Notes under the pieces: model-generated
Databases searched by the model: none
What the model was told of the DNA's origin: nothing
What the model saw: the letters and a program-made list of their open reading frames with translations, nothing else
Shown here: one piece after another, positions 8,725 through 44,932 of the stretch
How the letters are laid out: every line of letters starts with the position of its first letter
How positions within the stretch are numbered: position 1 is the first letter of the stretch
Program-made: the position numbers and the translations under genes
IMG/VR virus record: IMGVR_UViG_3300042923_000318
Coordinates: 1 to 56,134 of that record
DNA: 56,134 nt
Direction: 5' to 3' (one strand)
Source of the DNA: a virus

Positions 8725-8743
8725 ATGTAATGCTTGTACTGTT

Positions 8744-9145
8744 TTAAAGATTTTCAGTTATTTCAATTATTGGAGTGTTTAATTCTGTGGTTATAAACTC
8801 TATCAACAAATCAAATATATCTTGTTTCATTTGACCTATTACAATAAAGTCTATATTGCTTTTGTTGAAATAATACAATTGTTCTGTTTTTATATATCCG
8901 TTGATACCATTATCGTTTTTGACAATTGAATCATCATGGGCAATTGGAAAATTACCTGGGTAACTAAGTTTATCTTGCTTTTGTTGCTCATTTTTAAAAG
9001 AAGACATTACATTGCAAACAATATCGTAGTTCATTCCTTTAATTTGCCCTGCATCATCAGAAAGAACTACGAAAGAGTGTTGACTTAAGGTATGCTTACC
9101 ACTTTTGTATTTTTTAATTAATATTATATCTCCTACTTTACACAT
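8744..9145 (-). CDS. PemK/MazF-like protein (putative toxin)
   Basis: The 133-residue protein starts CKVGDIILIKKY, then HSFVVLSDDAGQIKGMNYDIVCNVMSSF and KLSYPGNFPIAHDD. This is the SH3-like fold pattern of clostridial MazF-like proteins (GDI at the start, a PGN segment in the centre). Canonical MazF proteins are mRNA endonucleases; activity here is not proven. It is preceded by a 50-residue gene with which it forms a two-gene minus-strand operon, suggesting a toxin-antitoxin or addiction pair. Confidence 0.65.
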   Translation of the reverse strand: MCKVGDIILIKKYKSGKHTLSQHSFVVLSDDAGQIKGMNYDIVCNVMSSFKNEQQKQDKLSYPGNFPIAHDDSIVKNDNGINGYIKTEQLYYFNKSNIDFIVIGQMKQDIFDLLIEFITTELNTPIIEITENL

Positions 9146-9154
9146 TGCAAAAAC

Positions 9155-9307
9155 CTACCTCACAGCACCGCAAACAGTTACTTTTTTTTCACCAGACATT
9201 ACTTTTTTACTCCATTCTATTGGCGTAACATCTTTTAAAGCTTCTGCTGTTGACATTGGTATTTTTTTTCTATTGTCAAGTTTGCTTAAATCAAGACCTC
9301 TCCCCAT
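9155..9307 (-). CDS. Small partner of PemK/MazF-like protein (putative antitoxin)
   Basis: A 50-residue protein from ATG 9307 with a GGAGGATG ribosome binding site. It contains LDLSKLDNRKKIPMSTAEALKD and a basic end. It shows no obvious DNA-binding fold. It precedes the MazF-like gene by nine bases, the usual antitoxin-first order. The antitoxin role is inferred from position only. Confidence 0.55.
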   Translation of the reverse strand: MGRGLDLSKLDNRKKIPMSTAEALKDVTPIEWSKKVMSGEKKVTVCGAVR

Positions 9308-9452
9308 AAATATCATCCTCCATACTTTTAATTCTTTTAAAATCTTTTATTTTATATATTATGCGTACTTTTGTAATTATTATACAACTTTTTATTTTGA
9401 TAGTAAATAAATTTTCATAAATATATTAATTGCTGAAAAATTAAAAAATATT

Positions 9453-9495
9453 TTGTACGTTATTACTTTACAATTAATTCGATATATGTTAATAT
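9453..9495 (+). promoter_or_regulatory. Operator TTGTACGTTATTACTTTA overlapping promoter
   Basis: The 18-bp element (9453-9470) overlaps the -35 TTTACA (9467-9472); 17 bases later is TGT-TAATAT (-10 at 9490-9495). This promoter drives the operon 9535-12304, which includes SSB and the phage sigma factor. Confidence 0.7.
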
Positions 9496-9534
9496 TAGTT
9501 ATGGACATAGTGAACATGAAAGGAAGTGAATTAA

Positions 9535-9861
9535 GTGTCAAATGTAACATTAAATCTAGACTTATACGAATTTCTAAAAGATAGAGAAACACACGTATGT
9601 GTGTATGAGGGAGAGATTACAGCAACGGTTTTTATATCTTTTTATGACCTAGACGAATTTATAAGAATTGTAGGTGAAAGATATTTTGATGATGACCCTG
9701 TGGAGGTAGTTTTACGCTCTAGACATATTTTTGTTGAATTAAACGGCATATTTGAATATCAAGATAATTCAGTTTTAGACTATAGAAAATGTTTCCCGGA
9801 ATCAGAAATTATTGAATGTTTAGAAGAAGCCGAAGCTTATAAAAAGAATGTAAGGAAGTGA
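9535..9861 (+). CDS. Hypothetical protein, first gene of SSB-sigma operon
   Basis: The 108-residue acidic protein starts at GTG 9535 behind GGAAGTGA. It alternates strands and helices (FYDLDEFIRIVGERYFDDD, CLEEAEAYKKN). I do not recognise it. It is the first gene after the operator-bearing promoter. Confidence 0.65.
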   Translation: MSNVTLNLDLYEFLKDRETHVCVYEGEITATVFISFYDLDEFIRIVGERYFDDDPVEVVLRSRHIFVELNGIFEYQDNSVLDYRKCFPESEIIECLEEAEAYKKNVRK

Positions 9862-9867
9862 GTTTAA

Positions 9868-10059
9868 ATGGTAGGCACAATTATAGATTATTCAAGCATT
9901 AAGGATTCAATGCACTTTGTTAAAATCGCAAGCGGTGAAAAGATAGTAACTTTGCATGTTGATAAGTTCCCAGACGTAAGACTTGGGGAACAGGTGGAGT
10001 TTGATGGTGAAAACTATTCTTTGTTAAGTAAAGGAGATAATCATGGAAATAGGATATGA
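9868..10059 (+). CDS. Small beta-rich hypothetical protein
   Basis: A 63-residue protein with the pattern of a small barrel (GTIIDYSSI, FVKIASGEKIVTLHV, GEQVEFDGENYSL), possibly OB-like. It starts six bases after the previous gene and overlaps the Cys-rich gene downstream by 17 bases. Confidence 0.6.
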   Translation: MVGTIIDYSSIKDSMHFVKIASGEKIVTLHVDKFPDVRLGEQVEFDGENYSLLSKGDNHGNRI

Positions 10060-10222
10060 AAAAGGAGAAAAATGCAATAGAAGTGATTGCGACGGGATAC
10101 TAGAGGAATATGATACAGACACAAGCTGTAGCTGTCATATAAGTCCTCCCTGTTCACATTGCGTTAATAGTAGGGCTTATTGTCCTAAATGTGGTTGGGA
10201 TGCAAGAGAAGAAGAAACATAG
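10043..10222 (+). CDS. Cys-rich zinc-ribbon protein
   Basis: A 59-residue protein from ATG 10043 with an AGGAG ribosome binding site. Nine cysteines form three clusters (CNRSDC, CSCHISPPCSHC, CPKCGW), which suggests one or two zinc sites. Many phage genomes carry such small zinc-ribbon proteins near SSB; the function is unknown. Confidence 0.65.
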   Translation: MEIGYEKGEKCNRSDCDGILEEYDTDTSCSCHISPPCSHCVNSRAYCPKCGWDAREEET

Positions 10223-10334
10223 GAAAGGAATAAAACAAATCATAATAAGCAAAATTTCATTGAGAGGGGTTTGAGGCGCTTAAAGGGTAGTACAGAATTT
10301 GAAAATATTCCGTCATTAATGGGGGTTAAAGAAA

Positions 10335-10595
10335 TTGAAAGGCGTATGGCAATTACCTGTTTTAGAAAGAAGAACGATAAACGAACAATATATTAAGCAT
10401 AATGCTAAATATCATTATTATGAATATGAAGAACCAAGGGATATAAGTATATCTCCACTTGGCAAAAGTCTTTGCAATAAGCATGTTCAGCAAGTTGAGG
10501 ATTTTGAAAGTATAAAAGGTGGCGAAATATTAAGTAATCCACATATTGCTTGCAAAAGGTGTAGAGATAAATGGAGAAAGTTATTTAATCTTTAA
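10335..10595 (+). CDS. Hypothetical protein with C-terminal Cys pair
   Basis: An 86-residue protein from TTG 10335; GGGGG lies about 11 bases upstream. It has HYYEYEEPRD in the middle and a CKRCRDKWRK end. About 110 bases without a gene precede it. The family is unknown. Confidence 0.5.
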   Translation: MKGVWQLPVLERRTINEQYIKHNAKYHYYEYEEPRDISISPLGKSLCNKHVQQVEDFESIKGGEILSNPHIACKRCRDKWRKLFNL

Positions 10596-10635
10596 GGCGT
10601 AATACAAGAATATTTTAAATCAAGGAGGCGCAATA

Positions 10636-10998
10636 TTGGCAAAGAATTATGAAGAAATAACAAGAAAGTTAGTTGCTGAATATTTGAAAGAAAAGACAAC
10701 AATTCATTCTGTTGCAAGAATGTTTAAGCTTACTTATCAGACAGCTAGAAGTGGAATTTTAAGAATAGAGCGATATGATAAAGAGCTTTATGAAAAAGTA
10801 ATTTTAAAGCTCAAGGCAAATAAAAGTAGTAGAGTAAGAGGCAAGTACAAAGAGACAATTTGGGACGAGTTTAAAGGTACTACACTTAAAAGAAATGATG
10901 TTATAGACATATATCTTATAAATGGCGGCACAGATACTTTGCAAGTAAGTGAATTGCTGCAACAGGTGAGAAGCCATGGAGTTCAAATATTAGGATAG
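10636..10998 (+). CDS. SpoIIID-like DNA-binding protein with C-terminal extension
   Basis: The 120-residue protein starts at TTG 10636 behind AGGAGG. Residues 5-70 follow the SpoIIID layout: ITRKLVAEYLKEKTTIHSVA, the HTH ARMFKLTYQTARSGILRI, then a long helix with VRGKYKETI. A further 45-residue C-terminal part is not found in SpoIIID. SpoIIID is a mother-cell transcription factor of sporulation. Here it is 10 bases before ssb. The similarity is weaker than for the gene at 28124. Confidence 0.55.
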   Translation: MAKNYEEITRKLVAEYLKEKTTIHSVARMFKLTYQTARSGILRIERYDKELYEKVILKLKANKSSRVRGKYKETIWDEFKGTTLKRNDVIDIYLINGGTDTLQVSELLQQVRSHGVQILG

Positions 10999-11008
10999 AG
11001 GTGTAATA

Positions 11009-11419
11009 ATGAATAAAGTTGTATTAATCGGAAGGTTAACAAAAGATCCAGAGTTGAAATTTACCCCAGGAAGTGGAACGGCTGTGGCAAGTTTCACAAT
11101 AGCAGTAGACAAGCGAGTAAAAAACGATACTGGGGAAAAGCAAGCTGATTTTATTTCTATAGTTGTTTGGGGCAAGACCGCTGAATATGTGGCTAATTAT
11201 TCTGCAAAAGGCAAATTGATAGGTATAAGCGGCAGAATACAAACACGTTCCTATGATGCTAAAGACGGCACAAAGCGTTATGTTACGGAAGTTGTAGCGG
11301 AGGAAGTACAAATATTAGAGTTTGCTAGAAGTTCAAATAGCGGTAGTGGTAATAGTAATTCTAATGGTTTTAACATGGATGGCATGACAGAAATAGACGA
11401 CGGAATTGTACCTTTTTAA
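11009..11419 (+). CDS. ssb: Single-stranded DNA-binding protein
   Basis: The 136-residue protein begins MNKVVLIGRLTKDPELKFTP, contains VASFTIAVDKRVKN, FISIVVWGKTAEYVANY and GISGRIQTRSYDAKDG, and ends DDGIVPF, the acidic tip used to recruit partner proteins. These are diagnostic SSB features. It is located in accessory island I rather than next to the helicase at 29.5 kb. It would coat ssDNA during replication and RecT-type recombination. Confidence 0.95.
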   Translation: MNKVVLIGRLTKDPELKFTPGSGTAVASFTIAVDKRVKNDTGEKQADFISIVVWGKTAEYVANYSAKGKLIGISGRIQTRSYDAKDGTKRYVTEVVAEEVQILEFARSSNSGSGNSNSNGFNMDGMTEIDDGIVPF

Positions 11420-11431
11420 AGGAGTAAAGTT

Positions 11432-11563
11432 ATGAGCAATAAATTAGCATTTCTAATAACTATAACGGCTCTAGGGAGCTTCATATTATCAAGCATACAT
11501 TTAGTAGCTTGGATAAGCGGAAAAGCTCACAGTGGCAAAATATTGAAGAAAAGAGGGATTTAA
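11432..11563 (+). CDS. Small membrane peptide
   Basis: A 43-residue peptide from ATG 11432 behind AGGAG. One hydrophobic helix (about residues 5-28) is followed by a basic tail. Its TAA overlaps the next ATG, so the two are coupled. The function is unknown. Confidence 0.55.
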   Translation: MSNKLAFLITITALGSFILSSIHLVAWISGKAHSGKILKKRGI

Positions 11564-11757
11564 TGAAGATAGAGAGAGAAAGTTATCACACAACCTTTGA
11601 TAAGGAACTAAGAAAAGAGGTTAGTAAAACCGCAATTGATTTAGGTATAGAAGCAAATCAAGTCCTAGAGATTGCTTATGTGTATTTTAAAACTAATTGC
11701 AATATAGAAGAAGCCAGAAGAATATTAAAAGAAAGGAATGTTATAAATGACCAATGA
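11563..11757 (+). CDS. Small helical hypothetical protein
   Basis: A 64-residue protein from ATG 11563, chosen because it overlaps the upstream stop (TAATG); a start further upstream would duplicate the membrane-peptide frame. It is charged and helical. It overlaps the sigma-factor gene by 11 bases. Confidence 0.55.
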   Translation: MKIERESYHTTFDKELRKEVSKTAIDLGIEANQVLEIAYVYFKTNCNIEEARRILKERNVINDQ

Positions 11758-12304
11758 AGAACTATTTGCAAAAGGAGATATTGAAGCATTATATAATAAT
11801 AACTTAAAATATATGTTTAGCTTAAGATACAAATTTAAAGGCATGGACTGGGAAGAATTACAATCTTTATGCAATTTAGGATTTTCAAAAGCAGTCAAGA
11901 AGTATTCTCCAGATAAAAATGTTAAATTTATAACTTATCTTGCAATGTGCCTGCAAAATGAAGTATTTAAATATTTTAAAGATAGTAAGAAACACGCCAA
12001 CTTAGTATATTTAAGCGACTCCGTAGTATCTTATAAAAATGGACAATCGCAGACACTTGAAGACACCCTAAGCATAGAGATTGATTTTTTAGAAAATTTT
12101 ATTTGCAAAGAAGAAAACGAAGAATTAAAGAGCGCGTTGAACTGCTTAAGCAATAGAGAAAAAGCCGTAATGGATTTAGTATTAAGCAATAAAACTCAAG
12201 TTCAAATCAGTAAATTAATAGGAGTCCAGCAAGCAAGTATAAGCAGGATTCAAAAGAGATCAATAAACAAGATTAGAAGATTTTTAAATGGCTACAAAAA
12301 TTAA
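11747..12304 (+). CDS. Phage sigma-70-family factor
   Basis: The 185-residue protein has a region-2-like segment (residues 35-85: DWEELQSLCNLGFSKAV, then KNVKFITYLAMCLQNEVFKY) and a C-terminal region 4 HTH (about 135-178: LSNREKAVMDLVLS, QVQISKLIGVQQASISRIQK). Region 3 is minimal, as in group 4/late-gene sigma factors. It may direct RNA polymerase to phage promoters, for example the TGTTATAAT class. It is the last gene before the tape-measure unit. Confidence 0.85.
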   Translation: MTNEELFAKGDIEALYNNNLKYMFSLRYKFKGMDWEELQSLCNLGFSKAVKKYSPDKNVKFITYLAMCLQNEVFKYFKDSKKHANLVYLSDSVVSYKNGQSQTLEDTLSIEIDFLENFICKEENEELKSALNCLSNREKAVMDLVLSNKTQVQISKLIGVQQASISRIQKRSINKIRRFLNGYKN

Positions 12305-22561: not shown

Positions 22562-22585
22562 AAATAAAAAGGGTTAAACCCCTTT
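22562..22585 (-). terminator. Intrinsic terminator of integrase gene
   Basis: On the minus strand: AAAGGGGTTTAACCC then CTTTTTATTTT. The two terminators face each other between lysis and integrase units; about 35 bases lie between them (22527-22561). Confidence 0.75.
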
Positions 22586-24176
22586 ATAATCTTGGATGCA
22601 CATCTAATGTTTCACCGTCCCAATATATCACTTCGACTAATTCATTTACAATTCTTTTCTTTTCAGTCATAGTCAAAGATTGAAAGTTATTAATTAAATA
22701 TTTAGTGGTATTATTAAATATTTCAAAGTTCATAGTTTTAATTACAGTATCATTTTTATCACTTTTTAAAAGTGTTATCTTTTTATTTAGCTCTTTTATT
22801 TCTTCATCTAACTTTTCTATTTTCTGGACTATATATTTACTAGCTGTAGAATTTTCAGCATCAATAAGTTTTTCGGTTAATTTCCCGATATCCTTAGATA
22901 ATTTTTCTATTTGAGATTGAAAGTTTTTTATATCTTTCTCTATATTATCGCTATCAAGCAATTGTTTATTCTGCTGAAATAATTCTCTTGCCCCTTCTTG
23001 ATCATAATAAGTTCTTTTAAATTGCTCTATAAACAATTTATCTGCTTGAGTCCCTGCTATATTTTTAATGTTGCAGCCTTTGCCTTTTGTTAATATTTTG
23101 TTAGAACATCTATAATAATGATTTTTTCTTACACCGCCGTTATAATCAGCGGTAACAGAAAAAAATCCACCACAATTGCTACATCTTATAAGTCCGCTTA
23201 GCAATGCATCCATAGCCTGCCCTTGTCTTGGAAACTTGTCTGCATTTCTTAAAAATCGTTCTTGTACATCAATCCACTTTTCAGATTCTACGCAATATGG
23301 GTGCCTGCCTATTGCAACAATCCATTCGCTAGTATCTTTAGCAACATATTTCTTTTTAGATTGATCCTGCTTGTTATAACACATAACACCATACTCGCTA
23401 TTATCTCTAAATTCTTCAACAGAGTTACAAATTTGCATATTATTTTTCTTTGCATAATTATAAAAATTTATGTCAGCTTTACAATAAAAAGGATTTGCAA
23501 GCATTCTCCTTATAGAGTTTATATGAAAATATTTATTATCTTCATTTTTTATATTATTATCAACAAGGTATTTTGTAACTGCATTTAAACTATTGAAAGT
23601 TATATATTTATCAAACATAATTTTTAATTTATCTATTTGTGCATTGTCTATATCTAAATAGCAATCTTTCCCTATACCTATTTTTTTATATCCAAAAGGA
23701 GTATTTCCACCTAACCATTTTCCGCTTTTAGAAAGTTCAAGCATGTTATCTCTAACTCTTTCCGCTATAGTTTCTCTTTCTAATTGTGCAAATACACCAG
23801 CAATATACAACATAGCTCTACCCATTGGTGAAGTGGTGTCAAATTGCTCTCTTATAGATATAAATTCTATATTATAATCTTGTAAATCTTCAATTATTTT
23901 AGCAAAGTCGCCTATATTTCTGCTTATTCTATCTAATCTATAGCAGAGAATTATATTAAACATTTTATTTTTTGCATCCTTCATCATTTTAGAAAAGTTA
24001 GGGCGGTCAATATTGCCGCCGCTAAATCCTTCATCCTCATAAACAAAGATATCGTTTACTTTTTTATAGTTTTTATGTATGTATTCTTTACACATTTGAA
24101 CTTGGTTTTCTACGCTATCTGAATTCTCTATGTATCTGCTTTTGCGACTATATATCGCTATGTTTAAATTATCCAT
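22584..24176 (-). CDS. int: Large serine recombinase (integrase)
   Basis: About 530 residues from ATG 24176 (GGTGA seven bases upstream). The resolvase domain starts MDNLNIAIYSRKSR with catalytic Ser10 and contains YRLDRISRN near residue 80 and GRAMLYIAGVFAQLERE. A recombinase domain follows, then a zinc ribbon (CSNCGG and YYRCSNK..GC) near residues 335-380 and a long coiled-coil. It integrates and excises the phage at an att site. No att core could be identified. Confidence 0.93.
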   Translation of the reverse strand: MDNLNIAIYSRKSRYIENSDSVENQVQMCKEYIHKNYKKVNDIFVYEDEGFSGGNIDRPNFSKMMKDAKNKMFNIILCYRLDRISRNIGDFAKIIEDLQDYNIEFISIREQFDTTSPMGRAMLYIAGVFAQLERETIAERVRDNMLELSKSGKWLGGNTPFGYKKIGIGKDCYLDIDNAQIDKLKIMFDKYITFNSLNAVTKYLVDNNIKNEDNKYFHINSIRRMLANPFYCKADINFYNYAKKNNMQICNSVEEFRDNSEYGVMCYNKQDQSKKKYVAKDTSEWIVAIGRHPYCVESEKWIDVQERFLRNADKFPRQGQAMDALLSGLIRCSNCGGFFSVTADYNGGVRKNHYYRCSNKILTKGKGCNIKNIAGTQADKLFIEQFKRTYYDQEGARELFQQNKQLLDSDNIEKDIKNFQSQIEKLSKDIGKLTEKLIDAENSTASKYIVQKIEKLDEEIKELNKKITLLKSDKNDTVIKTMNFEIFNNTTKYLINNFQSLTMTEKKRIVNELVEVIYWDGETLDVHPRL

Positions 24177-24321
24177 AATTTTCACCATTTTCTGAACAGA
24201 CTTTGATTAACTTTTCAATTTCTTTCTCATTAAGATAGACAAATTCCCCATTGACTCTGATTGCTAGAACCCCTTTCATTTTGTCGTTTTCTTTGCTGCT
24301 TGTACCTTTTTGTACGGACAT
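24169..24321 (-). CDS. Small protein upstream of integrase
   Basis: A 50-residue protein from ATG 24321 behind GGGGGTG. It contains MKGVLAIRVNGEFVYLNEKEIEKLI. It overlaps the integrase start by eight bases, so the two are coupled. It could be a recombination accessory protein; the function is unknown. Confidence 0.6.
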   Translation of the reverse strand: MSVQKGTSSKENDKMKGVLAIRVNGEFVYLNEKEIEKLIKVCSENGENYG

Positions 24322-27906: not shown

Positions 27907-28127
27907 TGGTTGGGAATAGAATACCCTTTAACGATGTTTTAAATCTCCAGGACGACACTTTAGTATACTTGCTAGGGGATACGTCCCCTTTAAGATATAT
28001 CGAGCATGTAGAGGGCAAAATAACGCTTCATAGGCTTTGCAGTGATGACAGAATATTTTTTAATAAAACTACAGAAAAATTATTAAATCTAAAAATATAT
28101 GAGTGGAAAGTGGAGGGATTAAATTGA
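27906..28127 (+). CDS. Hypothetical early protein
   Basis: A 73-residue protein; its ATG overlaps the stop of the previous gene region and its end overlaps the SpoIIID-like start by four bases. Beta-rich (TLVYLLGDTSPLRYIEHVEGKITLHRL). Not recognised. Confidence 0.5.
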   Translation: MVGNRIPFNDVLNLQDDTLVYLLGDTSPLRYIEHVEGKITLHRLCSDDRIFFNKTTEKLLNLKIYEWKVEGLN

Positions 28128-28372
28128 AAAATGAAATGGTTCAGGAAAGAGTTATAGAGGTTGCTAAATTTACAGTACTAACTAACAGCACCATAAGAGC
28201 TACTGCAAAAATGTTCGGGGTTAGTAAGAGCACCATAGGTATGGATTTAAGCAAGAGAATAAATATCTTGAATCCAAAGCTTGCAGAGGAAGTTAAAAAA
28301 GTTTTAGATAATAACTTTAGTGAGAAGCATGTTAGAGGCGGCAATGCCACAAGGTTAAAATACAAAAGTTAG
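28124..28372 (+). CDS. SpoIIID-like transcription factor
   Basis: About 82 residues from TTG 28124, behind GGAGGG. The sequence ERVIEVAKFTVLTNSTIRATAKMFGVSKSTIGMD... KRINILNPKLAEEVKKVLD ... HVRGGNATRLKYK is collinear with bacterial SpoIIID along its full length, including the RGG-AT-LKYK end. SpoIIID controls mother-cell sporulation genes. The phage copy may regulate early phage genes or alter host sporulation. It sits just upstream of the operator pair at 28430. Confidence 0.85.
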   Translation: MKNEMVQERVIEVAKFTVLTNSTIRATAKMFGVSKSTIGMDLSKRINILNPKLAEEVKKVLDNNFSEKHVRGGNATRLKYKS

Positions 28373-28429
28373 GAAGTGAAAATTGGAGCGTAAAAGTAAA
28401 ATCTCAAAAGGCAATTTTTTTTACCCATG

Positions 28430-28493
28430 TTGTACGCTATAGCTTAAATATTTAATAAAAAGTGTAGCAAAATGTTAAGTTATAGCGTATAAT
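28430..28493 (+). promoter_or_regulatory. Inverted operator pair and replication promoter
   Basis: TTGTACGCTATAGCTTAA (28430-28447) faces TTAAGTTATAGCGTATAA (28475-28492), the same element in opposite orientation, 27 bases apart. The second overlaps a TATAAT at 28488-28493. The pair precedes the initiator and helicase operon, so binding could loop the DNA and repress replication genes. Confidence 0.75.
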
Positions 28494-28540
28494 AAAAGTA
28501 TAACTAAGTAAGTAATTTAATTAATAAGTGAGGTGATAAA

Positions 28541-28681
28541 GTGAAAACTTTCCCTTTGTACTTTGAAGATAAAGAACATGAAGAAATAAAGAAAGCAGCT
28601 GAAAAGGCTGATAAAACTATAAAAGATTTTATATTCGAAGCAATAAAAGAAAAAATCGCAAATGAAAGAAAGGCGGTGTAA
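28541..28681 (+). CDS. Small RHH-like DNA-binding protein
   Basis: A 46-residue protein from GTG 28541 behind GAGGTGAT. KTFPLYFEDKEHEEIKKAAEKADKTIKDFIFEAIKEKI has the strand-helix-helix pattern of Arc/CopG proteins. It is the first gene after the operator pair, so it may autoregulate. Confidence 0.65.
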   Translation: MKTFPLYFEDKEHEEIKKAAEKADKTIKDFIFEAIKEKIANERKAV

Positions 28682-28698
28682 TTTAGGGAGGAAGGCAG

Positions 28699-29514
28699 TT
28701 GAGATATATGATTGCACCTTTAGAATTAAATATAGAGGAACTGGAAATATACAGACTTTTATATTTAAAAATGGATTTTGATACCTTTGAAGTAAAATAC
28801 ACTATGGACCAGCTTTCCTCGGATAGTGATTTAAGGTTAAAAATGACTAAAAAGAAAGTTAGTCTGATTATAAAAAAATTTATTGATTCTGGAATGATTT
28901 TAATAATAAAGCCAGGGAGTAAAGGAAATCCAACGGTTTATCAATTAAATAAACTTGAAGAAATTGAGAAACACAAAAGTAACTTAAAAGAAACACAAAA
29001 GGAACGCAAAGGAAACACAAACGAAACGAATAAATCAAGTCAAATCAATGTGTTTGAGGATTTTGAGAAACACAACAGAAACACAACAGAAACACAAAAG
29101 GAACGCAAAGGAAACACAAAAGTTACTCCTATCAATGATAAAGATAAAGAAAATGATAAAGAAAATAAATATATATCTGAACAACAAATATTTGATATGT
29201 GGAATAATTTAAAAGCTGGTATAAATCATAAAGAGATAAAACCTCTTATAGATACAATAAGTAAGTCTATAAAAAAATATAAAACTGAAAATATACTTAC
29301 TGCTATTAAAAGACTATCAATAGCTTATAACGATAAGAGTTTTTATTATGAATACAAATGGAATCTAGGTAATTTTCTAACTCAAAAAAACGGAATAGTT
29401 AATTGGTTAGATGAGGGGCAATACTGGAACTCTTATTTAGATAAAAATCAAGCTAAAGATAAAATTAATGAGCAAGCGGAAGTTAATCCGTGGGGCAATC
29501 TAAAAAAATTCTAA
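28699..29514 (+). CDS. Replication initiator with internal origin
   Basis: The 271-residue protein starts at TTG 28699 behind GGGAGG. Residues 1-95 form a winged-helix domain (LEIYRLLYLKMDFDTFEVKYTMDQL ... GSKGNPTVYQL). A repetitive linker follows, in which ETQKERKGNT occurs twice, then a helical C-terminal domain (WNLGNFLTQKNGIVNWLDEGQYW) seen in phage replisome organisers. The linker DNA holds the iteron array. It sits just before the helicase and likely loads it. Confidence 0.82.
   Translation: MRYMIAPLELNIEELEIYRLLYLKMDFDTFEVKYTMDQLSSDSDLRLKMTKKKVSLIIKKFIDSGMILIIKPGSKGNPTVYQLNKLEEIEKHKSNLKETQKERKGNTNETNKSSQINVFEDFEKHNRNTTETQKERKGNTKVTPINDKDKENDKENKYISEQQIFDMWNNLKAGINHKEIKPLIDTISKSIKKYKTENILTAIKRLSIAYNDKSFYYEYKWNLGNFLTQKNGIVNWLDEGQYWNSYLDKNQAKDKINEQAEVNPWGNLKKF
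28968..29122 (+). other. Iteron array: putative phage replication origin
   Basis: GAAACACAA occurs at 28968, 28990, 29012, 29067, 29078, 29089 and 29111. All spacings (22, 22, 55, 11, 11, 22) are multiples of 11, and related units such as GGAACGCAAAG (29001, 29100) fill the gaps. This places binding sites on one face of the helix. A very AT-rich stretch follows (29130-29190), suitable for unwinding. Confidence 0.75.
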
Positions 29515-29538
29515 TTCTAACATCTAGGGGGTGGGTGA

Positions 29539-30861
29539 ATGGAACAGGCAATGCCGTGCGATGTAAATGTCGAAGCAGCTTTATTATCTAACATATTTAT
29601 GAAAAACGATATTATAGCTGATGCAATAAGCGTATTACGGCCAATAGATTTTTACTATAAACCGCATGAAATAATTTATACATATCTTGTAAAGTTGTAT
29701 GCAAAGAATGTGCCACTTGAAATATCAACTTTTGCGAATAGCGTAGGCAAAGATATACTGGGCAGCATAGGAGGAGTGACGTATCTATCAAAGATAATAG
29801 GATCTGAAGCAACGACAGCTAATTATAAAAGCTATATTCAAATGATTAAAACATTTAGTGACAAAAGAGTAATAATAAAGAATTGCAGTGAAGCAATAAG
29901 GCTTGCATATGAAAAAGAAATACCGCCAAAGGAAATTATAGACAAGGTGGAAAATTCTTTTATGAGTTTAAATGAACTCCAGGAAGAAAAGACAGTAAAT
30001 GCGTTTGAACTCATGGAAAGCACTATTAATTTAATTGATGAAAGAATTAAGAAAGGTGGAGCACTTCCGGGAATACCAACTGGGTATAAAAGTTTAGATA
30101 ATGCGACTGGAGGATTTGCAAAACAAGACCTATATATTTTAGCTGCAAGACCCTCAATGGGAAAGACTGCTTTTGTTGTAAATATTTTGAATAATATACC
30201 CAAGCAATATAAATCCATGCTGTGTGAACTAGAAATGAGCAAAGAAAAGCTTGGCGTTAGGTTATTAGCTCCTAAAATGTTTAAAAGTTCACAAGCTTTG
30301 GCAAGAGGGCAATTAAACGACAAAGAATTAACTTTAATGCTAACTAAATCAAGCGAAATTTCTAACAAAAACAATATATTTATTAACTGTAAAAGCGGCT
30401 TAAGCCTTTCTGAAATAAGAGCAGAGGCTAAGAAAATAAAAATAAAATTTGGATTAGATGTATTGTTTGTGGACCATATCGGCTTAATAAGACCCGAAAA
30501 CTTAAAAGCAACCAGAAATGACCAAATAGGTCAAATAAGTGCAGGACTTAAGAAAATGGCTAAAGATTTGGATATAGCAGTTGTAGCGTTAAGTCAATTA
30601 AGTAGAGCATGTGAAGCTAGGGCAAATAAAAGACCGCAATTAAGTGATTTAAGAGAGAGTGGAAATATAGAGCAGGATGCAGATACGGTTTTATTTCTAT
30701 ATCGTGACGATTATTACGCAGAGAGAGAATGTAGGGATAGTGAAAAGGCTGGAATACTTGAGGTAATGGCTGCAAAGAATCGTGATGGAGATATAGGAAT
30801 AATGGAATTAAGTTATAACACTGAATATCAAATTATAACTGAAAAGCCTATGGGAGGTTGA
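29539..30861 (+). CDS. DnaB-like replicative helicase
   Basis: The 440-residue protein has a DnaB N-terminal domain (VEAALLSNIFMKNDIIADAI), Walker A ARPSMGKT at residues 203-210, the CELEMS block, Walker B-like VLFVDHIGLI and SQLSRACEARANKRPQLSDLRESGNIEQDAD. This is the full DnaB signature. It unwinds the phage fork. It lies 24 bases after the initiator. Confidence 0.95.
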   Translation: MEQAMPCDVNVEAALLSNIFMKNDIIADAISVLRPIDFYYKPHEIIYTYLVKLYAKNVPLEISTFANSVGKDILGSIGGVTYLSKIIGSEATTANYKSYIQMIKTFSDKRVIIKNCSEAIRLAYEKEIPPKEIIDKVENSFMSLNELQEEKTVNAFELMESTINLIDERIKKGGALPGIPTGYKSLDNATGGFAKQDLYILAARPSMGKTAFVVNILNNIPKQYKSMLCELEMSKEKLGVRLLAPKMFKSSQALARGQLNDKELTLMLTKSSEISNKNNIFINCKSGLSLSEIRAEAKKIKIKFGLDVLFVDHIGLIRPENLKATRNDQIGQISAGLKKMAKDLDIAVVALSQLSRACEARANKRPQLSDLRESGNIEQDADTVLFLYRDDYYAERECRDSEKAGILEVMAAKNRDGDIGIMELSYNTEYQIITEKPMGG

Positions 30862-30865
30862 TTGA

Positions 30866-31018
30866 ATGCATAATAGATGGTCAATTTATGAAATGCTTAA
30901 GGGAAATAAAAGGCTAACAATTACAGAAATAGAAAAAATAAATGCAGAGGAAATAAAGGAGGGCGTTATAGAGTTCATTCTAAGCAAAGAAAAGGAAGTT
31001 GAAGCTGATGGAGAATAA
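30866..31018 (+). CDS. Small helical protein after helicase
   Basis: A 50-residue protein from ATG 30866 behind GGGAGG. Helical, charged. It overlaps the next gene by 11 bases. Not recognised; possibly a helicase accessory protein by position. Confidence 0.5.
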   Translation: MHNRWSIYEMLKGNKRLTITEIEKINAEEIKEGVIEFILSKEKEVEADGE

Positions 31019-35334: not shown

Positions 35335-35754
35335 ATGGAAGGTGTTTATATTTCTGCAGAATATAAAGAATTAGCCTTTAAGATAATACAAAGATTTAGC
35401 GAAGAATTAGGGCATATTGAATTAGATAACGTTATTTTTATAGAGGATATTATTAATGCTCCTAAAAATACAGCAGCTAGAACTTATTATTTTGGTTGTC
35501 ATCCTATAGAAGCATTTACCGATGCTAAATACGCAATAGTAATGTATAAAAACAATATAGAATATATGTCAGAGAATCAAATAAAAATTGTGCTTTATCA
35601 TGAGTTATTGCATATACCTTCAAAGGGCGAAAAAGCTACACTTATTCCTCACGACATAATGGATTTTCATAAAGTATTGTCAAAATTTGGAATTGATTGG
35701 AATGACGAAAATAAAAAAGTAATAGATATACTTGGAGGTGAAAACAATGACTGA
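35335..35754 (+). CDS. Putative phage metallopeptidase (HExxH)
   Basis: The 139-residue protein contains YHELLHIPSKG (residues about 83-93), an HExxH zinc motif, preceded by IKIVL. Small proteins of this type precede the small terminase subunit in many Firmicute phages. Substrate unknown. It overlaps the small terminase by eight bases, so it is coupled to packaging genes. Confidence 0.78.
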   Translation: MEGVYISAEYKELAFKIIQRFSEELGHIELDNVIFIEDIINAPKNTAARTYYFGCHPIEAFTDAKYAIVMYKNNIEYMSENQIKIVLYHELLHIPSKGEKATLIPHDIMDFHKVLSKFGIDWNDENKKVIDILGGENND

Positions 35755-36190
35755 AAGCGACGTACAAAAAGTAACGTATGAGCAATATGACAACCTTACA
35801 AACGAAAGAATGAAGCTGCTTGAGGTTATTAGTAATCCAGAACATAGATTTAAAAGCATTACTGACATTTGTAAAATAGCAGGAGTGCAAAGAATAACTT
35901 ATTACAGGGCAATGAAAGACCAGAATTTTGTAACAGCAATAAAAAGAAAGAAAGAGGAACTATTGAACGGAGCTATATTACCAGTAATAAACACATTTAT
36001 TAAAGAGGCTATCAGAGGCAGTTATAAGCATGGAGAGGCATTACTGAAAATGTCTGGTGATTTAATAGAGAAACAAGAAATTAAAGGAGAATTTAAAACA
36101 GAAGTTAATTCTACGATAGACATGAGTAAATTATCAGCGGAGGAGTTGAAACAACTTGAATCCATTGTCGCTAAATCTTCCGAGTCTTAA
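35747..36190 (+). CDS. terS: Terminase small subunit
   Basis: About 147 residues from ATG 35747 (GGAGGTG upstream). It has an N-terminal HTH (FKSITDICKIAGVQRITYYRAMKDQNF), a helical oligomerisation region and a C-terminal KLSAEELKQLESIVAKS typical of phBC6A51-type small terminases. It recognises the packaging site and overlaps terL by 35 bases. Confidence 0.85.
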   Translation: MTESDVQKVTYEQYDNLTNERMKLLEVISNPEHRFKSITDICKIAGVQRITYYRAMKDQNFVTAIKRKKEELLNGAILPVINTFIKEAIRGSYKHGEALLKMSGDLIEKQEIKGEFKTEVNSTIDMSKLSAEELKQLESIVAKSSES

Positions 36191-37661
36191 GGAGATAAGA
36201 AAGGAATTAGATACTAGATGCTTAAATGAGTTTTGTAAAGATGCGTGGGGGATTGTGGAGCCTGCCACGCCTTTAGTCTATAATTGGCACATAGATGCGA
36301 TATGCGAATATCTTCAAGCTGTAAAAGAAGGGCAAATCAAAAGGTTATTAATTAATATGCCTCCACGTATGATGAAGTCTATGCTAGTAACTATAATGTA
36401 TCCTACATGGTGTTGGACTACAGCACCACATCTAAAGTTTATAAATCTATCTTATTCAGATACGCTATCTAAAGGGCATAATATGAAGCGTAGAGACATA
36501 ATACAAGACACATGGTATCAAAATAACTGGAAAGATGTATTTCAGCTTAAGGACGATTTAAACACTCAAAGAAAGTTTGAAAATAATCACTATGGTTCAA
36601 TGTTTTCGACTTCTATTGGTGGTACTCTTACTGGTGAAGGTGCCGACGTTATAGTTGTCGATGATCCCCACAACCCAAAGCAAGCTGAATCTGATACCCA
36701 AAGAGAAGATGCTGTAGAGTTTTTTAGGACCACTTTACAAACTCGTTTAAATAATCCCAAAGAGGGTGCAATCATTGTTGTAATGCAAAGACTTCACGAA
36801 ATGGACGTAAGTGGTCATATCCTCCAGTATGAAAGCGGATATGAGCATTTGTGTTTACCTATGGTAGCAGAAGAAAAAATGATTATACAAATGCCTATAA
36901 GCGGTTTGGAACGGATTAGAGAAAAAGGCGATATTCTTCACAAGGAAAGATATGGACAGGACGAAATAGAAAAGCTAAGAAGTTCCATGGGTTCCTATGG
37001 ATTTAGTGGACAAATGCAGCAGAACCCAGTTCCATCCGGCGGTGGAATGTTTAAAAAGTGGTGGTGGAAATACTGGAAACCCAAAGGAATAAACTTGCCT
37101 CCAGTAAGCATTAAAAATCAAATAGGCGAAATAGAATACATTCACGCCGTAGACATTCCCGACAGTTTCGAGGAAGTTGCTCAAAGTTGGGATATGAACT
37201 TTAAAAACAATAAAGATAATGATTATGTTGCTGGAGGCGTTTGGGCAAAGAAAGGAGCTGACAGGTATTTTCTAGATTTGAACATGAAGCAAGCTGAATT
37301 TACAGAAGCTTTAAATATGGTTAGAAAGCTAACCGATGCATACCCAAAAGCAACTAGAAAGCTTGTGGAGGACAAAGCAAATGGTCCGGCAGTAATAAGC
37401 AGCTTGAAACATGAAATAAGCGGATTAATAGAGTATAATCCTGGCAGTGATAGCAAGGAATCTAGAGCTTTTGCGGTTACACCAATGGTAGAATCGGGAA
37501 ATGTTTATATTCCTCACCCTGCATTGTTTACATGGGTGGATAAATTCATAAACAATTGTGCTAAATTTCCAAAGTGCGAGCATGATGATGATATAGATCA
37601 AATGTCTCAAATGCTTAATTATTGGAATGTTAAAAAACAATTCAGAGTAACAAGAGTATAA
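36156..37661 (+). CDS. terL: Terminase large subunit
   Basis: The 501-residue protein starts at TTG 36156. The ATPase contains INMPPRMMKSM (Walker A-like, about residues 66-76) and VIVVDDP (Walker B, 165-171), and MQRLHEMDVSGH. The nuclease domain has SWDMNF (first acidic residue near D346), LVEDKANGPAV and a final HDDDIDQMS. It cuts and translocates DNA into the prohead. Confidence 0.95.
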   Translation: MNPLSLNLPSLKEIRKELDTRCLNEFCKDAWGIVEPATPLVYNWHIDAICEYLQAVKEGQIKRLLINMPPRMMKSMLVTIMYPTWCWTTAPHLKFINLSYSDTLSKGHNMKRRDIIQDTWYQNNWKDVFQLKDDLNTQRKFENNHYGSMFSTSIGGTLTGEGADVIVVDDPHNPKQAESDTQREDAVEFFRTTLQTRLNNPKEGAIIVVMQRLHEMDVSGHILQYESGYEHLCLPMVAEEKMIIQMPISGLERIREKGDILHKERYGQDEIEKLRSSMGSYGFSGQMQQNPVPSGGGMFKKWWWKYWKPKGINLPPVSIKNQIGEIEYIHAVDIPDSFEEVAQSWDMNFKNNKDNDYVAGGVWAKKGADRYFLDLNMKQAEFTEALNMVRKLTDAYPKATRKLVEDKANGPAVISSLKHEISGLIEYNPGSDSKESRAFAVTPMVESGNVYIPHPALFTWVDKFINNCAKFPKCEHDDDIDQMSQMLNYWNVKKQFRVTRV

Positions 37662-39534: not shown

Positions 39535-39942
39535 CTATTTTTTATCTTTTATTCCTAATGTTTCTTTTAAGGCTAATTGTAAAATAGCAGAAAAATTAAC
39601 TTTTTTCTCAAGCGCGAGATTATCCAACCATCTAGGTATAGTTAAAGTCTTTTTAACTGCTTTATTTAACATTTCATCTCTTACTAATTTCATATAAACT
39701 TCAACAAGCACTGTAAAACAACCTTCATCAAGCTTTAATAACTCTGGAGCAGTTGGGTCGGGAATTTCTTCCCTATCTTCTTCAAAGCAATATAAATGCA
39801 GCTCAAGCGCATCTTTTGCCATTCTTAAAGCCTCTGCAATATCGTCGCCCTCTGTAATGCATCCAGGTAGATCTGGAAAAGTTACAGTATATCCGCCCTC
39901 CTCACAGACTTCAAAAATAGCCGGGAAAATATATCTATCCAT
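39535..39942 (-). CDS. HicB-like protein without HicA
   Basis: The 135-residue protein begins with YIFPAIFEVCEEGGYTVTFPDLPGCITEGDDIAEALRMAKDALELHL, the HicB RNase-H-like fold. The C-terminal part with IPRWLDNLALEKKVNFSAILQLALKETL is an RHH-type DNA-binding domain. HicB is normally the antitoxin of the HicA RNase. No HicA-like ORF lies beside it, so it may act as an orphan antitoxin against host HicA or as a repressor. Confidence 0.85.
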   Translation of the reverse strand: MDRYIFPAIFEVCEEGGYTVTFPDLPGCITEGDDIAEALRMAKDALELHLYCFEEDREEIPDPTAPELLKLDEGCFTVLVEVYMKLVRDEMLNKAVKKTLTIPRWLDNLALEKKVNFSAILQLALKETLGIKDKK

Positions 39943-40002: not shown

Positions 40003-40068
40003 GTGTACGTAATAAGTTAATAAATATGTACGATATTGGTTGAATGTTAACAAATATTATGATACAAT
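40003..40068 (+). promoter_or_regulatory. Two operators and promoter of AbrB-like gene
   Basis: GTGTACGTAATAAGTTAA (40003-40020) and ATGTACGATATTGGTTGA (40026-40043) precede TTGAAT (40040-40045), 17 bases, TACAAT (40063-40068). They lie between divergent promoters and could control both. Confidence 0.6.
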
Positions 40069-40088
40069 AATATTACGGAGGTGAACAA

Positions 40089-40238
40089 ATGCTTGTTAAA
40101 ATTATCAGTGTGCAAGAAACTGGGAGGAATACTTTTTTTAATATTCCTAAAGAGGTTAAAGAAGAATTAAACATTAAAAAAGGCGACAAATTACTTGTTA
40201 AACTTGAGGATGGAAGGATTATATTAGAAAAGTGTTAG
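40089..40238 (+). CDS. AbrB/MazE-like SpoVT-domain protein
   Basis: A 49-residue protein from ATG 40089 behind GGAGGTG. VQETGRNTFFNIPKEVKEELNIKKGDKLLVKLEDGRIIL is a complete SpoVT/AbrB swapped-hairpin domain. It may be an antitoxin-type or transition-state regulator. No MazF-type partner follows. Confidence 0.85.
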   Translation: MLVKIISVQETGRNTFFNIPKEVKEELNIKKGDKLLVKLEDGRIILEKC

Positions 40239-40249
40239 GAGGAATGCAG

Positions 40250-40798
40250 GTGCAATATATAAATATTTTAAATATTATGCAACATTTTGTGTTATTGCCA
40301 GAAACTGAATATATTTATTCTGACGGAATAGCATTAGATAAAGACGAATGCCAAGATTTAATAGAAAAATTAAAAAAACAAATGGAGCTAGACCAAGAAG
40401 AAATAAAAATGCTAAAAAGATACAAATCTATTGAATATAGTTATAGCTCTTTTGTCCACAGATGTGAAAAGCCTAGAGAGGGAGAAGTATACTTTGCAAA
40501 ATTAAAAAATGGTTTGATAAAAATAGGTTGCTCAAAAGACACTTTGAATAGGCTTAAAGCATTAAAAAAAGAATTTGGAGAAATTAAACTGCTAAAATCA
40601 ATAAAGGTTTCTAACATGTATCACTTTGAATCTTTAGTGCACTTTGTGTTTGATAAATATAGAAAAGAGAGAGAATTATTTGATTTATCCTATATAAAAA
40701 ACGAGAAAATTTTAGAGAAATTATATAACATGCTTGAAACTAATGTTGATAAAAAAGATTATTTATTATTTATGATCCAAAACGATTTGGATATTTAG
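40250..40798 (+). CDS. T5orf172/GIY-YIG-like protein
   Basis: About 182 residues from GTG 40250, seven bases after TTAGGAGGA; ATG 40244 is too close. Residues from about 80 contain GEVYFAKLKNGLIKIGCSKDTLNRLKALKKEFGEIKLL and FESLVHFVFDKYRKERELFDL, the T5orf172/Mug113 version of the GIY-YIG fold. The N-terminus is a coiled-coil. It might be a DNA endonuclease or a regulator. Confidence 0.75.
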   Translation: MQYINILNIMQHFVLLPETEYIYSDGIALDKDECQDLIEKLKKQMELDQEEIKMLKRYKSIEYSYSSFVHRCEKPREGEVYFAKLKNGLIKIGCSKDTLNRLKALKKEFGEIKLLKSIKVSNMYHFESLVHFVFDKYRKERELFDLSYIKNEKILEKLYNMLETNVDKKDYLLFMIQNDLDI

Positions 40799-40808
40799 GT
40801 GAAACGAA

Positions 40809-41504
40809 TTGACCAGAGAGTTTAAAGGCGTATGGATTCCTAAAGAAATTTGGTTAACAAAGAAATTAACCTTGCAAGAAAAAGTGTTTTTAGTTGAAAT
40901 AGATAGTCTAAATAATGAAAATGGTTGCTATGCAAGCAATGATTATTTTTCAGAGTTCTTTGGATTATCTAAGAATAGATGCTCTGAAATAATAAATTCG
41001 TTAGCTGCTAAGCAATTTATAACTATAAGCTATATTTGGGGAGCTAAAAAGAATATTGAAAAAAGAATTTTAAAAATCAAAGAAAAAGAAACTGACCCTA
41101 TTCGGAAAATCGAACAGGGGTATTCGGAAAACCGACTGGGGGTAATCGAAAAGTCGAAGGATAATAATATAATTATAAGTAATACAATTATTAATAATAA
41201 ACACTTACATATTCTTTCAGAATACGTGTTTACGCATGATATAAAATCATATATAACTATATATTTAAAAGTTAGAGCTTACTATAGAAACAAAGAACAT
41301 AAAAAGATAAACAATATAAATATCAGTTATATAGAAAGTGTTATTAATAGCTTAATAGAAAAAGAAATAAGCTTAAAGAAATTCGAAGATGCTGCTTACG
41401 AGTATTTTGAAAAGCTAAAGAAAAGTAATGACGGTGATATAGTTTGTTTCTTAAAAGCTAGCCAAAAAAGATTATTTGATTTGAACTGGGATGAAATAAT
41501 ATAA
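40809..41504 (+). CDS. Second replication-initiator-like protein
   Basis: The 231-residue protein starts at TTG 40809. The N-terminal 80 residues form a winged-helix domain (WIPKEIWLTKKLTLQEKVFLVEIDSLNNENGCYASNDYFSEFFGLS). A linker (about 95-115) is coded by 22-bp DNA repeats, and a helical C-terminal domain follows. This is the same architecture as the initiator at 28699, but the sequences differ. It is outside the main replication module. Confidence 0.65.
   Translation: MTREFKGVWIPKEIWLTKKLTLQEKVFLVEIDSLNNENGCYASNDYFSEFFGLSKNRCSEIINSLAAKQFITISYIWGAKKNIEKRILKIKEKETDPIRKIEQGYSENRLGVIEKSKDNNIIISNTIINNKHLHILSEYVFTHDIKSYITIYLKVRAYYRNKEHKKINNINISYIESVINSLIEKEISLKKFEDAAYEYFEKLKKSNDGDIVCFLKASQKRLFDLNWDEII
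41099..41160 (+). other. 22-bp iterons: putative second origin
   Basis: Three dyads of the form TCG-N6-CGA start at 41102, 41124 and 41146, exactly 22 bases apart (TCGGAAAATCGA, TCGGAAAACCGA, TCGAAAAGTCGA). They are followed by an extremely AT-rich stretch (41161-41205). This is the structure of an initiator-bound origin with an unwinding element. Confidence 0.6.
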
Positions 41505-41519
41505 AGTAGAGGTGTAAAG

Positions 41520-41762
41520 ATGACTGTAGATATTAAAAGAATGTATGAAGTTAAAACAAAAGAAAAGAAAGTTGTTGTATCAGAAGATGATATATTGAAC
41601 TTTCTTTATACTGACAGAGATATAAAGAGAAGTGTTGTAGGAAGATTACTTGGATATAACGACGGTTATTTTAAATTAGACACAAGTCTAAATTATAGAA
41701 AAAGTGAAGAAAAAATATTTTACTTAAATATTACTGATATCAATATTATTGAAAAGAATTGA
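41520..41762 (+). CDS. Hypothetical protein
   Basis: An 80-residue charged protein with GAGGTG upstream. Alternating strands and helices (VVVSEDDILNFLYTDRDIKRSVVGRLLG). Not recognised; follows the second initiator. Confidence 0.55.
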   Translation: MTVDIKRMYEVKTKEKKVVVSEDDILNFLYTDRDIKRSVVGRLLGYNDGYFKLDTSLNYRKSEEKIFYLNITDINIIEKN

Positions 41763-41777
41763 GGAGGAATATGCGGA

Positions 41778-41933
41778 ATGGATGATTATAAAATACTATG
41801 TTCTACCAAAAGAACTGAATACTATATATCTAAAAACGGTATGCTTGCAAGAAAAACTAAAAACACATTTAAGGAACTTGGGTATATAGAAGATAATATG
41901 AGCTTATATAAAAAGCTATGCGAATCAATTTAG
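41778..41933 (+). CDS. Small hypothetical protein
   Basis: A 51-residue basic protein from ATG 41778 behind GAGGAGG. Not recognised. Confidence 0.5.
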   Translation: MDDYKILCSTKRTEYYISKNGMLARKTKNTFKELGYIEDNMSLYKKLCESI

Positions 41934-43466: not shown

Positions 43467-43634
43467 ATGGATTTATTTAAACAAAGAAATGCATTTAAAG
43501 CAACATCATATGATCATAACGCTTCAAATGTTGTAACGTTAAGGAATAGATCAAGTTTATCAAAAATGTTAAATAGATATTCAAGAAGGAAACTGAAACA
43601 AGAACTGAAATTTGAAGTAAAGGAAGTGAGTTAA
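43467..43634 (+). CDS. Small basic protein before portal
   Basis: A 55-residue basic protein from ATG 43467 behind AAGGAAG. Its stop overlaps the portal ATG. Rich in Arg, Lys and Ser. It may be a minor head-assembly protein by position. Confidence 0.55.
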   Translation: MDLFKQRNAFKATSYDHNASNVVTLRNRSSLSKMLNRYSRRKLKQELKFEVKEVS

Positions 43635-44932
43635 TGAACTTTAAGAATATATTTGAGTTGAAAGCTTTAGAGAAAAAACAAAATGTTATTTTAACCAAAA
43701 TAGTTGAGCTGAACGGTGGTAAGTCGGCACAATATATAAAGTCTAATTATGAATCTATAGCAAAAGAGGGGTATTCGGGTAATTATATAATAGGCAGATG
43801 CATAAATGAAATTGTAAGAGCTGCAGTGCAATTAGATTGGAAAGTCATGAGGTACAATAAAGATAATAAGCCAGAGGAAATTCCAAATCATCCAGCAGTG
43901 CAGATTATGGAGAAACCTAATCCAACAACAACAGAGGCAGAATTAGTAAAAAGAGCAATCATCTATTATTATCTTGCTGGTGATGCTCCTTTTGTAAAAA
44001 TAACAGCAGGAAATAGGGTAAAGGAATTATATGTACATAACCCCAGGAAAATAAGCGTTGAGCTTACTGGGAATGTAGAGGAACCTTATCAAGGCATAAG
44101 ATATAATGGACAGATTCAGAAAGATATAGAATCTAAGAATTTTACATTATGGAAAAACTTTGACCCTTTATGTGCTTTTGATGGATTAGGGAGAGGGATT
44201 TCGCCTTTGGAACCCATATTAAAAAACGGTGATCTTTTGAATTTATATCTTGAGTGGGGTAATTCTTTATTAAACAACGGTGGCAGCTTAAGTGGAATAG
44301 TAGCAATAGAGGAAACATTACAAGACCCCGAATATGAAAGAGCAAAAGCAGAACTTAAAAATGAACATCAAGGAGCTGGAAACGTAGGTAAATTTTTATT
44401 ACTGGAAGGTGGAGCAAAGTATTATTCAACTGGTAGCAATCCACGCGATATGCAGTGGGTGGAGGGTAAAAACAGTACAGCAGTCGACATAATGGTAGGT
44501 ATAGGAGTTGATCCTCTCATACTTGGGTTTAACGAGCATAGCAGCTATAATAATAAAAACGAAGCATATAAAGCGCTGTATACTAATTTAGTTATTCCAC
44601 TAATGAGAAGTTTAGCGGATGAACTTGGACCATTCTTAGGATTATTAGAAAACGAATATCTAGATATAGACTATAGTAAAATACCATGTCTCCAGGAGGA
44701 TATAAAAGAGTTAACCGACAGATTACAGAAAGCAGATGACCTAACCATTAACGAAAAAAGGCAAGCCAGAGGACTGGACCCATTGCCTGGCGGCGACATA
44801 ATCGTAAACAATAACTTTATACTCAAAGACGGCAAATTGTATAAGCCAGTTAGTTTACAAGATATTGACATAGATAGCGAACCCCAGGACGAAAACTTAC
44901 TACAAGATGATGCAAAATCTTTAATATATTGA
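43634..44932 (+). CDS. Portal protein (HK97 family)
   Basis: The 432-residue protein contains YIIGRCINEIVRAAVQLDWKV, NHPAVQIMEKPNPTTTEAELV, AGDAPFVKI, LYVHNPRKI and GRGISPLEPILKNGD, followed by a helical C-terminus with NEAYKALYTNLVIPLM. This is the HK97 portal pattern. It forms the dodecameric DNA gate of the prohead. Confidence 0.93.
   Translation: MNFKNIFELKALEKKQNVILTKIVELNGGKSAQYIKSNYESIAKEGYSGNYIIGRCINEIVRAAVQLDWKVMRYNKDNKPEEIPNHPAVQIMEKPNPTTTEAELVKRAIIYYYLAGDAPFVKITAGNRVKELYVHNPRKISVELTGNVEEPYQGIRYNGQIQKDIESKNFTLWKNFDPLCAFDGLGRGISPLEPILKNGDLLNLYLEWGNSLLNNGGSLSGIVAIEETLQDPEYERAKAELKNEHQGAGNVGKFLLLEGGAKYYSTGSNPRDMQWVEGKNSTAVDIMVGIGVDPLILGFNEHSSYNNKNEAYKALYTNLVIPLMRSLADELGPFLGLLENEYLDIDYSKIPCLQEDIKELTDRLQKADDLTINEKRQARGLDPLPGGDIIVNNNFILKDGKLYKPVSLQDIDIDSEPQDENLLQDDAKSLIY

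Follow-up and report, generated by a model that had tools for sequence, protein, structure and literature searches.

The gene at 40809..41504 (plus strand) of the window, the whole 56,134-nt stretch of viral DNA analysed, is unremarkable as a member of its phage initiator family but unusual in its location. It is probably a self-contained initiator-plus-origin gene that occupies an exchangeable second-origin slot, where it would add an origin of different specificity. Descriptions of tailed phages usually give them a single initiator/origin module, an early one. The window phage has such a module at 28699-30861, and the additional gene lies, as the original prediction had placed it, in an island flanked by the large terminase subunit on the left (36156..37661, plus strand; PF17289) and by the portal on the right (43634..44932, plus strand; PF04860, E 4e-47). 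Operator control of this island, which had also been proposed, was not confirmed, and no operator was demonstrated.

The open reading frame encodes 231 amino acids and begins with TTG, about 9 nt downstream of a Shine-Dalgarno-like AGGTGA (40797..40802, plus strand) recognised by direct reading of the sequence. The protein consists of a winged helix, an origin-encoded linker and a C-terminal helical part. In an AlphaFold2 model built on a 33-sequence alignment, the winged helix (residues 12-90, encoded by 40842..41078, plus strand) is of high confidence, with the recognition helix at residues 55-67, and residues 95-144, which are encoded by the iterons and the AT-rich element, form a disordered linker. 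The architecture predicted from the sequence alone, a winged helix plus a helical domain, is confidently modelled in its first part; the helical C-terminal part (residues 145-222, encoded by 41241..41474, plus strand) is of low confidence. The VWIPKEIW motif is present and its columns are invariant in the 33-sequence alignment. The protein matches Pfam HTH_36 at 30.4 bits (curated cut-off 25) and DnaD_N below the cut-off; these are the only two matches returned by hmmscan at E<=0.1, RepA_N (PF06970) not being among them. It belongs to PHROG_270 (replication initiation, E 1e-12), and its PHROG matches are mostly replication initiation (also PHROG_19658, PHROG_2880 and PHROG_678). Database matches span the N-terminal half only; the C-terminal region has no clear sequence relatives in phage or plasmid collections, and a search of solved-structure sequences with the protein gave no meaningful relative. 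Among folds, the winged helix matches DnaD (2v79) as well as 4pql, 4pt7, 5kbj and 4pta, which titles and literature mark as pSK41-type Rep N-domains, with Z scores of 7.9-9.1 over 88-99 residues. The pSK41-type Rep and DnaD scores are tied with those of generic winged-helix proteins and regulators, so function is left undecided by the fold alone. Taken together, HTH_36, the PHROG_270 family and the in-gene iterons support the phage-initiator reading well.

The middle of the gene contains an array of three 22-bp iterons (41099..41158, plus strand; TRF and shuffle tests). Its TCG-N6-CGA dyads follow one another at the exact 22-bp distance that had been claimed: TCGGAAAATCGA at 41102..41113 (extended form CCCtaTTCGGAAAATCGAAcaGGG), TCGGAAAACCGA at 41124..41135 and the degenerate TCGAAAAGTCGA at 41146..41157. 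Only four other TCG-N6-CGA sites occur in the 56-kb window, none of them in such an array, and TTCGGAAAANCGA has its exact match within the window in this gene only. With 28/36 matches at lag 22, the gene has a tandem-repeat score that no shuffle attained, whether synonymous (0/200) or of codon order (0/200), and the exact triple dyad never turned up among synonymous shuffles either (0/20,000). The AT-rich segment said to follow the dyads is equally real: the GC content of 41161-41200 is 5%, a value equalled by 0.007% of 40-bp windows. This DUE-like element (41161..41201, plus strand) holds a motif that is codon-locked throughout the family, in the form of AATAATAYA-type repeats at 41163 (AATAATATA), 41178 (AGTAATACA) and 41193 (AATAATAAA), with a spacing of 15 nt. 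All three copies are imperfect, as is the third iteron. With its AATAATAYA repeats, the element has the appearance of an origin's melting or single-strand element. GC skew, suggested as a check, proved uninformative, with no inflection at 40809-41504.

The protein is a member of a widespread phage initiator family that can be recognised in sequence by the motif FKGVWIPKEIW. Relatives are encoded by 84 viral stretches and 16 genome contigs, to which annotated phages and Paraclostridium phage-plasmids add more; Skulduggery gp49, HU1 and LE1 Orf5 are examples. A sample of 398 Bacillota genomes contained four strong family matches, and relatives of the portal were remote only. The original prediction had named homology to transcription regulators as grounds for abandoning the initiator reading, but several homologues lie directly 5' of DnaC/DnaB-type genes and the families matched are replication initiators. 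In Skulduggery, HU1, vB_LspM-01 and the Paraclostridium phage-plasmids the family gene is immediately 5' of a DnaC-like, DnaB-like or ATPase gene, and a helicase or loader gene directly 3' is common, not universal, at family loci with a recognisable next gene. Short relatives of about 115-150 aa that comprise the winged helix only occur in Verrucomicrobia, Proteobacteria and Pseudomonadales assemblies (L089, L091-L093, L095, L096, L098, L100, L101). No obvious in-gene iterons were seen in these short relatives from bacterial MAGs; in some, GGAAG/CTTCC-like repeats follow the stop codon.

Is the in-gene origin a property of the family? Repeat statistics were collected for 69 divergent members, with near-duplicates removed. 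The best tandem repeat falls at codons 75-125, just downstream of the winged helix, in 65/69 members, most often with a lag of 22 (32 members) or 23 (17 members), and in 43/69 the repeat score was reached in <=2/200 synonymous shuffles. This tandem-lag score replaced a palindrome score over all inner positions, which, being dominated by AT-rich sequence, showed no signal across the family. The iteron sequence varies among members while position and period are mostly constant. TTCGG-type dyads are common to the window, Gracilibacillus (L086), the Paraclostridium phage-plasmids, L002, L003, L007 and Pseudomonas phages.

The AT-rich element is also shared. After the iterons, 66/69 members encode (N/S)N(T/I) peptides, mostly spaced at 12 or 15 nt, for which the DNA nearly always reads AATAATACA, AATAATATA or AGTAATACA. 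Within the motif Thr is ACA in 97/103 cases vs 301/820 elsewhere, and Asn is AAT in 253/260 vs 855/1184 elsewhere; members share ancestry, and these codon counts, like those for residue 60 below, are not independent draws. The density of AATAATACA is 1.35/kb within family genes vs 0.01/kb around them. Family genes of Pseudomonas phages, at 51-55% GC, also write the motif as AATAATACA, which argues for a constraint on the DNA and not on the protein alone. DnaD of B. subtilis binds TnnT pairs on single strands at oriC (PMC10201434). The TAAT within the AATAATAYA repeats fits TnnT. DnaD is, however, not known from Pseudomonas. A conserved, codon-locked AATAATAYA element follows the iterons from Clostridia to Pseudomonas phages.

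Does the protein read the iterons of its own gene? Residue 60, which lies in the recognition helix and is a glutamate in the window protein, was the best predictor of iteron similarity among 90 N-domain positions scanned in member pairs at 35-55% N-domain identity. E60 goes with TTCG-N-CGA dyads in 10/13 members vs 1/56 others, an association that includes Pseudomonas phages; its p of 9e-9 is nominal, since the pattern was first spotted by eye and the members share ancestry, and the scan over all positions is the fairer control. As residue 60 co-varies with the repeat sequence, the protein most likely binds the iterons of its own gene. The family offers a testable code, in which one residue of the recognition helix tracks the iteron half-site.

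The island was compared with that of a sister phage (L104, IMG/VR 3300042922_000324, 52 kb), and the comparison covers this one sister. The shared nucleotide segments are 88-98% identical, the portal protein is 99% identical over its best segment and gene order is the same on both sides of the slot. Between the HicB-like antitoxin gene (39535-39942, minus strand) and the 41778 gene the sequence is almost wholly replaced, with nucleotide alignment breakpoints delimiting a cassette at 40043..41778 in the window and at 4955-6681 in L104. The window cassette also includes a T5orf172/MUG113 (GIY-YIG-like) gene (40232..40798, plus strand; PF10544, E 4e-9), and 40809-41504 is followed by small ORFs at 41520, 41778 and 41947, with no helicase or loader gene among them. 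Searches for a third sister genome with terL and the primary initiator gave no match, island gene 42630 found the L104 sister only, the L104 slot gene found itself only, and megablast of the region against phage records gave no match. Beside the nearly identical portal, the two phages have unrelated terminase genes, of the Terminase_3 type at 1917-3580 in L104 and of the Terminase_6C type at 35732-37661 in the window.

The L104 slot holds an initiator of 254 aa (L104 5914-6678) that is unrelated to the window gene and is of the TP901-1 type (34% identity to TP901-1 Rep over 104 aa, E 3e-6). The slot initiators' C-domains showed no similarity to each other or to the primary initiator. A CCAGATGTGG box is found in both the L104 slot gene and the TP901-1 rep gene, where it is part of a repeat; the window has none. 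In the L104 gene, AATAATACT-type repeats come after the box. The box could arise by chance, one match at <=1 mismatch being found in 47/200 shuffles, and tandem-lag repeats in the L104 gene are weak (reached in 3-5/500 codon-order and 115-132/500 synonymous shuffles), so that homology to TP901-1 Rep, together with CCAGATGTGG, is the main ground for claiming an origin in the L104 slot. In unrelated TP901-1-type reps, AATACT repeats follow the boxes, resembling the AATAATAYA repeats that follow the iterons of the window family; repeats of these two types are possibly a general single-strand element of phage in-gene origins. The L104 slot initiator has its closest relative in the Rep (54% across the N-terminal half) of a circular Sarcina element of 13.7 kb. 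This plasmid, p4 (L134, NZ_CP051758), encodes capsid, portal, connectors, terminase and protease alongside the TP901-1-like Rep, and resembles a small capsid-forming satellite or mini-phage.

The primary module of the window indeed has, as had been noted, a separate initiator-like gene with different repeats, followed by DnaB. The initiator (28699..29514, plus strand; PHROG_391, E 3e-4) contains two in-gene arrays of the 11-bp repeat AGAAACACAAA (28967-29028 and 29066-29122, plus strand; TRF; repeat score reached in 0/500 shuffles), and the DnaB-like replicative helicase occupies 29539..30861 (plus strand; PHROG_19, E 6e-96). The two putative origins share no repeats, the 11-bp AGAAACACAAA of the primary module contrasting with the 22-bp TTCGG dyads of the 40809 gene. 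Exchange has also affected the primary module of the sister (L106 1066-2632 vs window 28372-30999): its initiator has a different N-domain and different repeats, with a C-terminal part 52% identical to the window's, and a DnaC-like loader, named by inspection of its P-loop sequence, replaces DnaB. Slot and primary initiators together give two initiator genes in both sisters. Just 5' of the window's primary initiator lies a SpoIIID-like gene (28103-28372; PHROG_11726, E 1e-27), which may point to a spore-forming host.

How would the second origin work? The N-terminal winged helix would bind the three palindromic iterons midway through the coding sequence; with a period of 22 bp, these are about two helical turns apart and so present their sites on one face of the DNA. 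Bound initiators may then melt the adjoining AT-rich stretch with its AATAATAYA-type repeats, and the C-terminal domain would recruit a helicase to the opened DNA. Since no loader or helicase gene follows 40809, the phage DnaB (29539) or a host helicase would be needed. The slot between terL and portal appears to be a second-origin slot, filled in the sister by the TP901-1-type initiator, and both phages have another, different initiator in their normal early module; the slot cassette would most likely supply an extra origin of another specificity. The exchange history of the slot makes this second-origin reading more than a one-off capture. What such a slot is for can be proposed only tentatively: a dedicated exchangeable slot taking unrelated initiator families might serve a late, packaging-proximal round of replication or act as an origin decoy against rival phages and satellites that share its origin type (native phage-encoded resistance, PER), an idea we regard as possible rather than probable.

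Other explanations of the gene and its repeats have to be weighed against an extra origin. Chance repeats or a mis-assembled island might be suspected in a viral contig from a public collection with one sister only, but the triple dyad appears in 0/20,000 synonymous shuffles and the sister contig keeps the gene order flanking the slot at 88-98% identity, so that this reading is refuted in substance and deserves hardly any credence. It is also improbable that the winged helix belongs to a transcription regulator that acts through the dyads, as operator or site of autoregulation, and has no role in replication. The fold search does return MarR/LexA-type regulators, a promoter-like match at 41146-41173 (10/12) overlaps dyad 3 and the short relatives in bacterial MAGs have the winged helix only. 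Nevertheless, the dyads lie in mid-gene rather than at a promoter, the AT motif downstream of them is codon-locked, the family context is 5' of loader/helicase genes and the matched families are those of replication initiators.

There are two further alternatives. The cassette could be a remnant captured from a plasmid-prophage or a capsid-forming satellite, now passive cargo beside terL, and the Sarcina element with capsid, portal and terminase whose Rep is closest to the sister's slot gene, the Paraclostridium phage-plasmids among the close relatives of the window gene and the imperfect AT repeats of the window are all in keeping with this. We consider it unlikely, given an intact ORF, iterons better than any shuffle, cassette ORFs that by inspection show no partition, integrase or other satellite genes, and initiators of different sequence in the slots of both sisters, which passive decay would not lead one to expect. 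Alternatively, the cassette may be an interfering origin decoy that, in a PER-like manner, titrates competing phages or satellites using that type of origin, the slot being exchanged because the rivals change. Cloned TP901-1 and Tuc2009 oris and replisome organizers confer PER in trans (PMC8965321), the sisters hold different origin types in the slot, 40809 has no loader gene after it and the island is accessory, with its HicB-like and GIY-YIG-like genes. However, a decoy needs the iterons only, yet an intact 231-aa initiator ORF and the AT element are kept; no competitor phage is known with the exact window iterons in the same host; and the primary module is exchanged too, so that exchange alone does not point to interference. 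Interference as the sole function is accordingly quite unlikely.

Initiators with an in-gene origin are already known from TP901-1, Tuc2009, SPP1, pSK41 and P1 oriL. In the P335 lactococcal phages, the replisome organizers TP901-1 ORF13 and Tuc2009 Rep2009 bind direct repeats that serve as ori within their own gene, as reported for TP901-1 ORF13 (PMC8965321, citing Ostergaard 2001, McGrath 1999). It is the sister's slot gene, and not the window gene, that is of this type: the window gene, with its palindromic TTCGG dyads at a 22-bp period, comes from another family, and it stands between terL and portal, whereas the TP901-1 rep gene sits in the normal early module. The pSK41-type Rep proteins have a winged-helix N-domain, mid-gene origin boxes encoding a dispensable linker and a helical C-domain, and the hybrid pPR9 Rep has a phage-type HTH_36 (PF13730) N-domain, its rep region supporting autonomous replication (PMC5703833). 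The window gene shares with pSK41-type Rep the plan of winged helix, linker and C-domain together with mid-gene origin boxes; it differs in that no RepA_N domain was detected, the C-domain has no recognised relative and the location is a phage late region. Where RepA_N initiators have a DnaD-like helical C-domain, the model of the window protein is of low confidence. Many other members of its own family lie directly 5' of a helicase or loader gene, while the window gene stands alone as an additional initiator.

Phage genomes with two origins are known as well, from SPP1 and P1. SPP1 G38P has an origin in the coding sequence of gene 38 and a second origin region, oriL and oriR (PMC3485210); there one initiator binds both origins, whereas in the window the putative second origin comes with a separate initiator and with repeats of another kind. 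P1 has oriR and repL/oriL; its lytic origin lies inside repL, and replication suffers when an AT-rich stretch there is changed synonymously (PMC9948254). What P1 and the window phage have in common is a genome with two replicons, putative ones in the window; in P1 the other one serves to maintain the plasmid prophage, while the window phage has two phage-type initiators, and its 22584-24188 looks by inspection like a serine recombinase. In the Paraclostridium phage-plasmids L102 and L103, ParA, the family initiator and a loader make up a P1-like two-replicon layout, and L102 additionally encodes a plasmid-type replication protein. A single HTH_36 gene is found in 18/19 other phage records with a family member, a count that covers HTH_36 only.

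A second, independently exchanged initiator/origin gene between terL and portal is unusual, and the open-access literature searched yielded no account of one of phage type whose counterpart in a sister belongs to a different family. Each of the two sisters has an unrelated second initiator gene among the late packaging genes, and both replication modules have been exchanged independently, which suggests that phages trade in origin specificity, possibly for reasons of incompatibility, competition with satellites or the staging of replication. Early-type genes among late ones are also seen elsewhere in the window: by ORF reading, a second accessory island (8000-12304) lies within the tail module, with an antirepressor-like gene, an SSB gene (11009-11419) and a sigma-factor-like gene (11747-12304).
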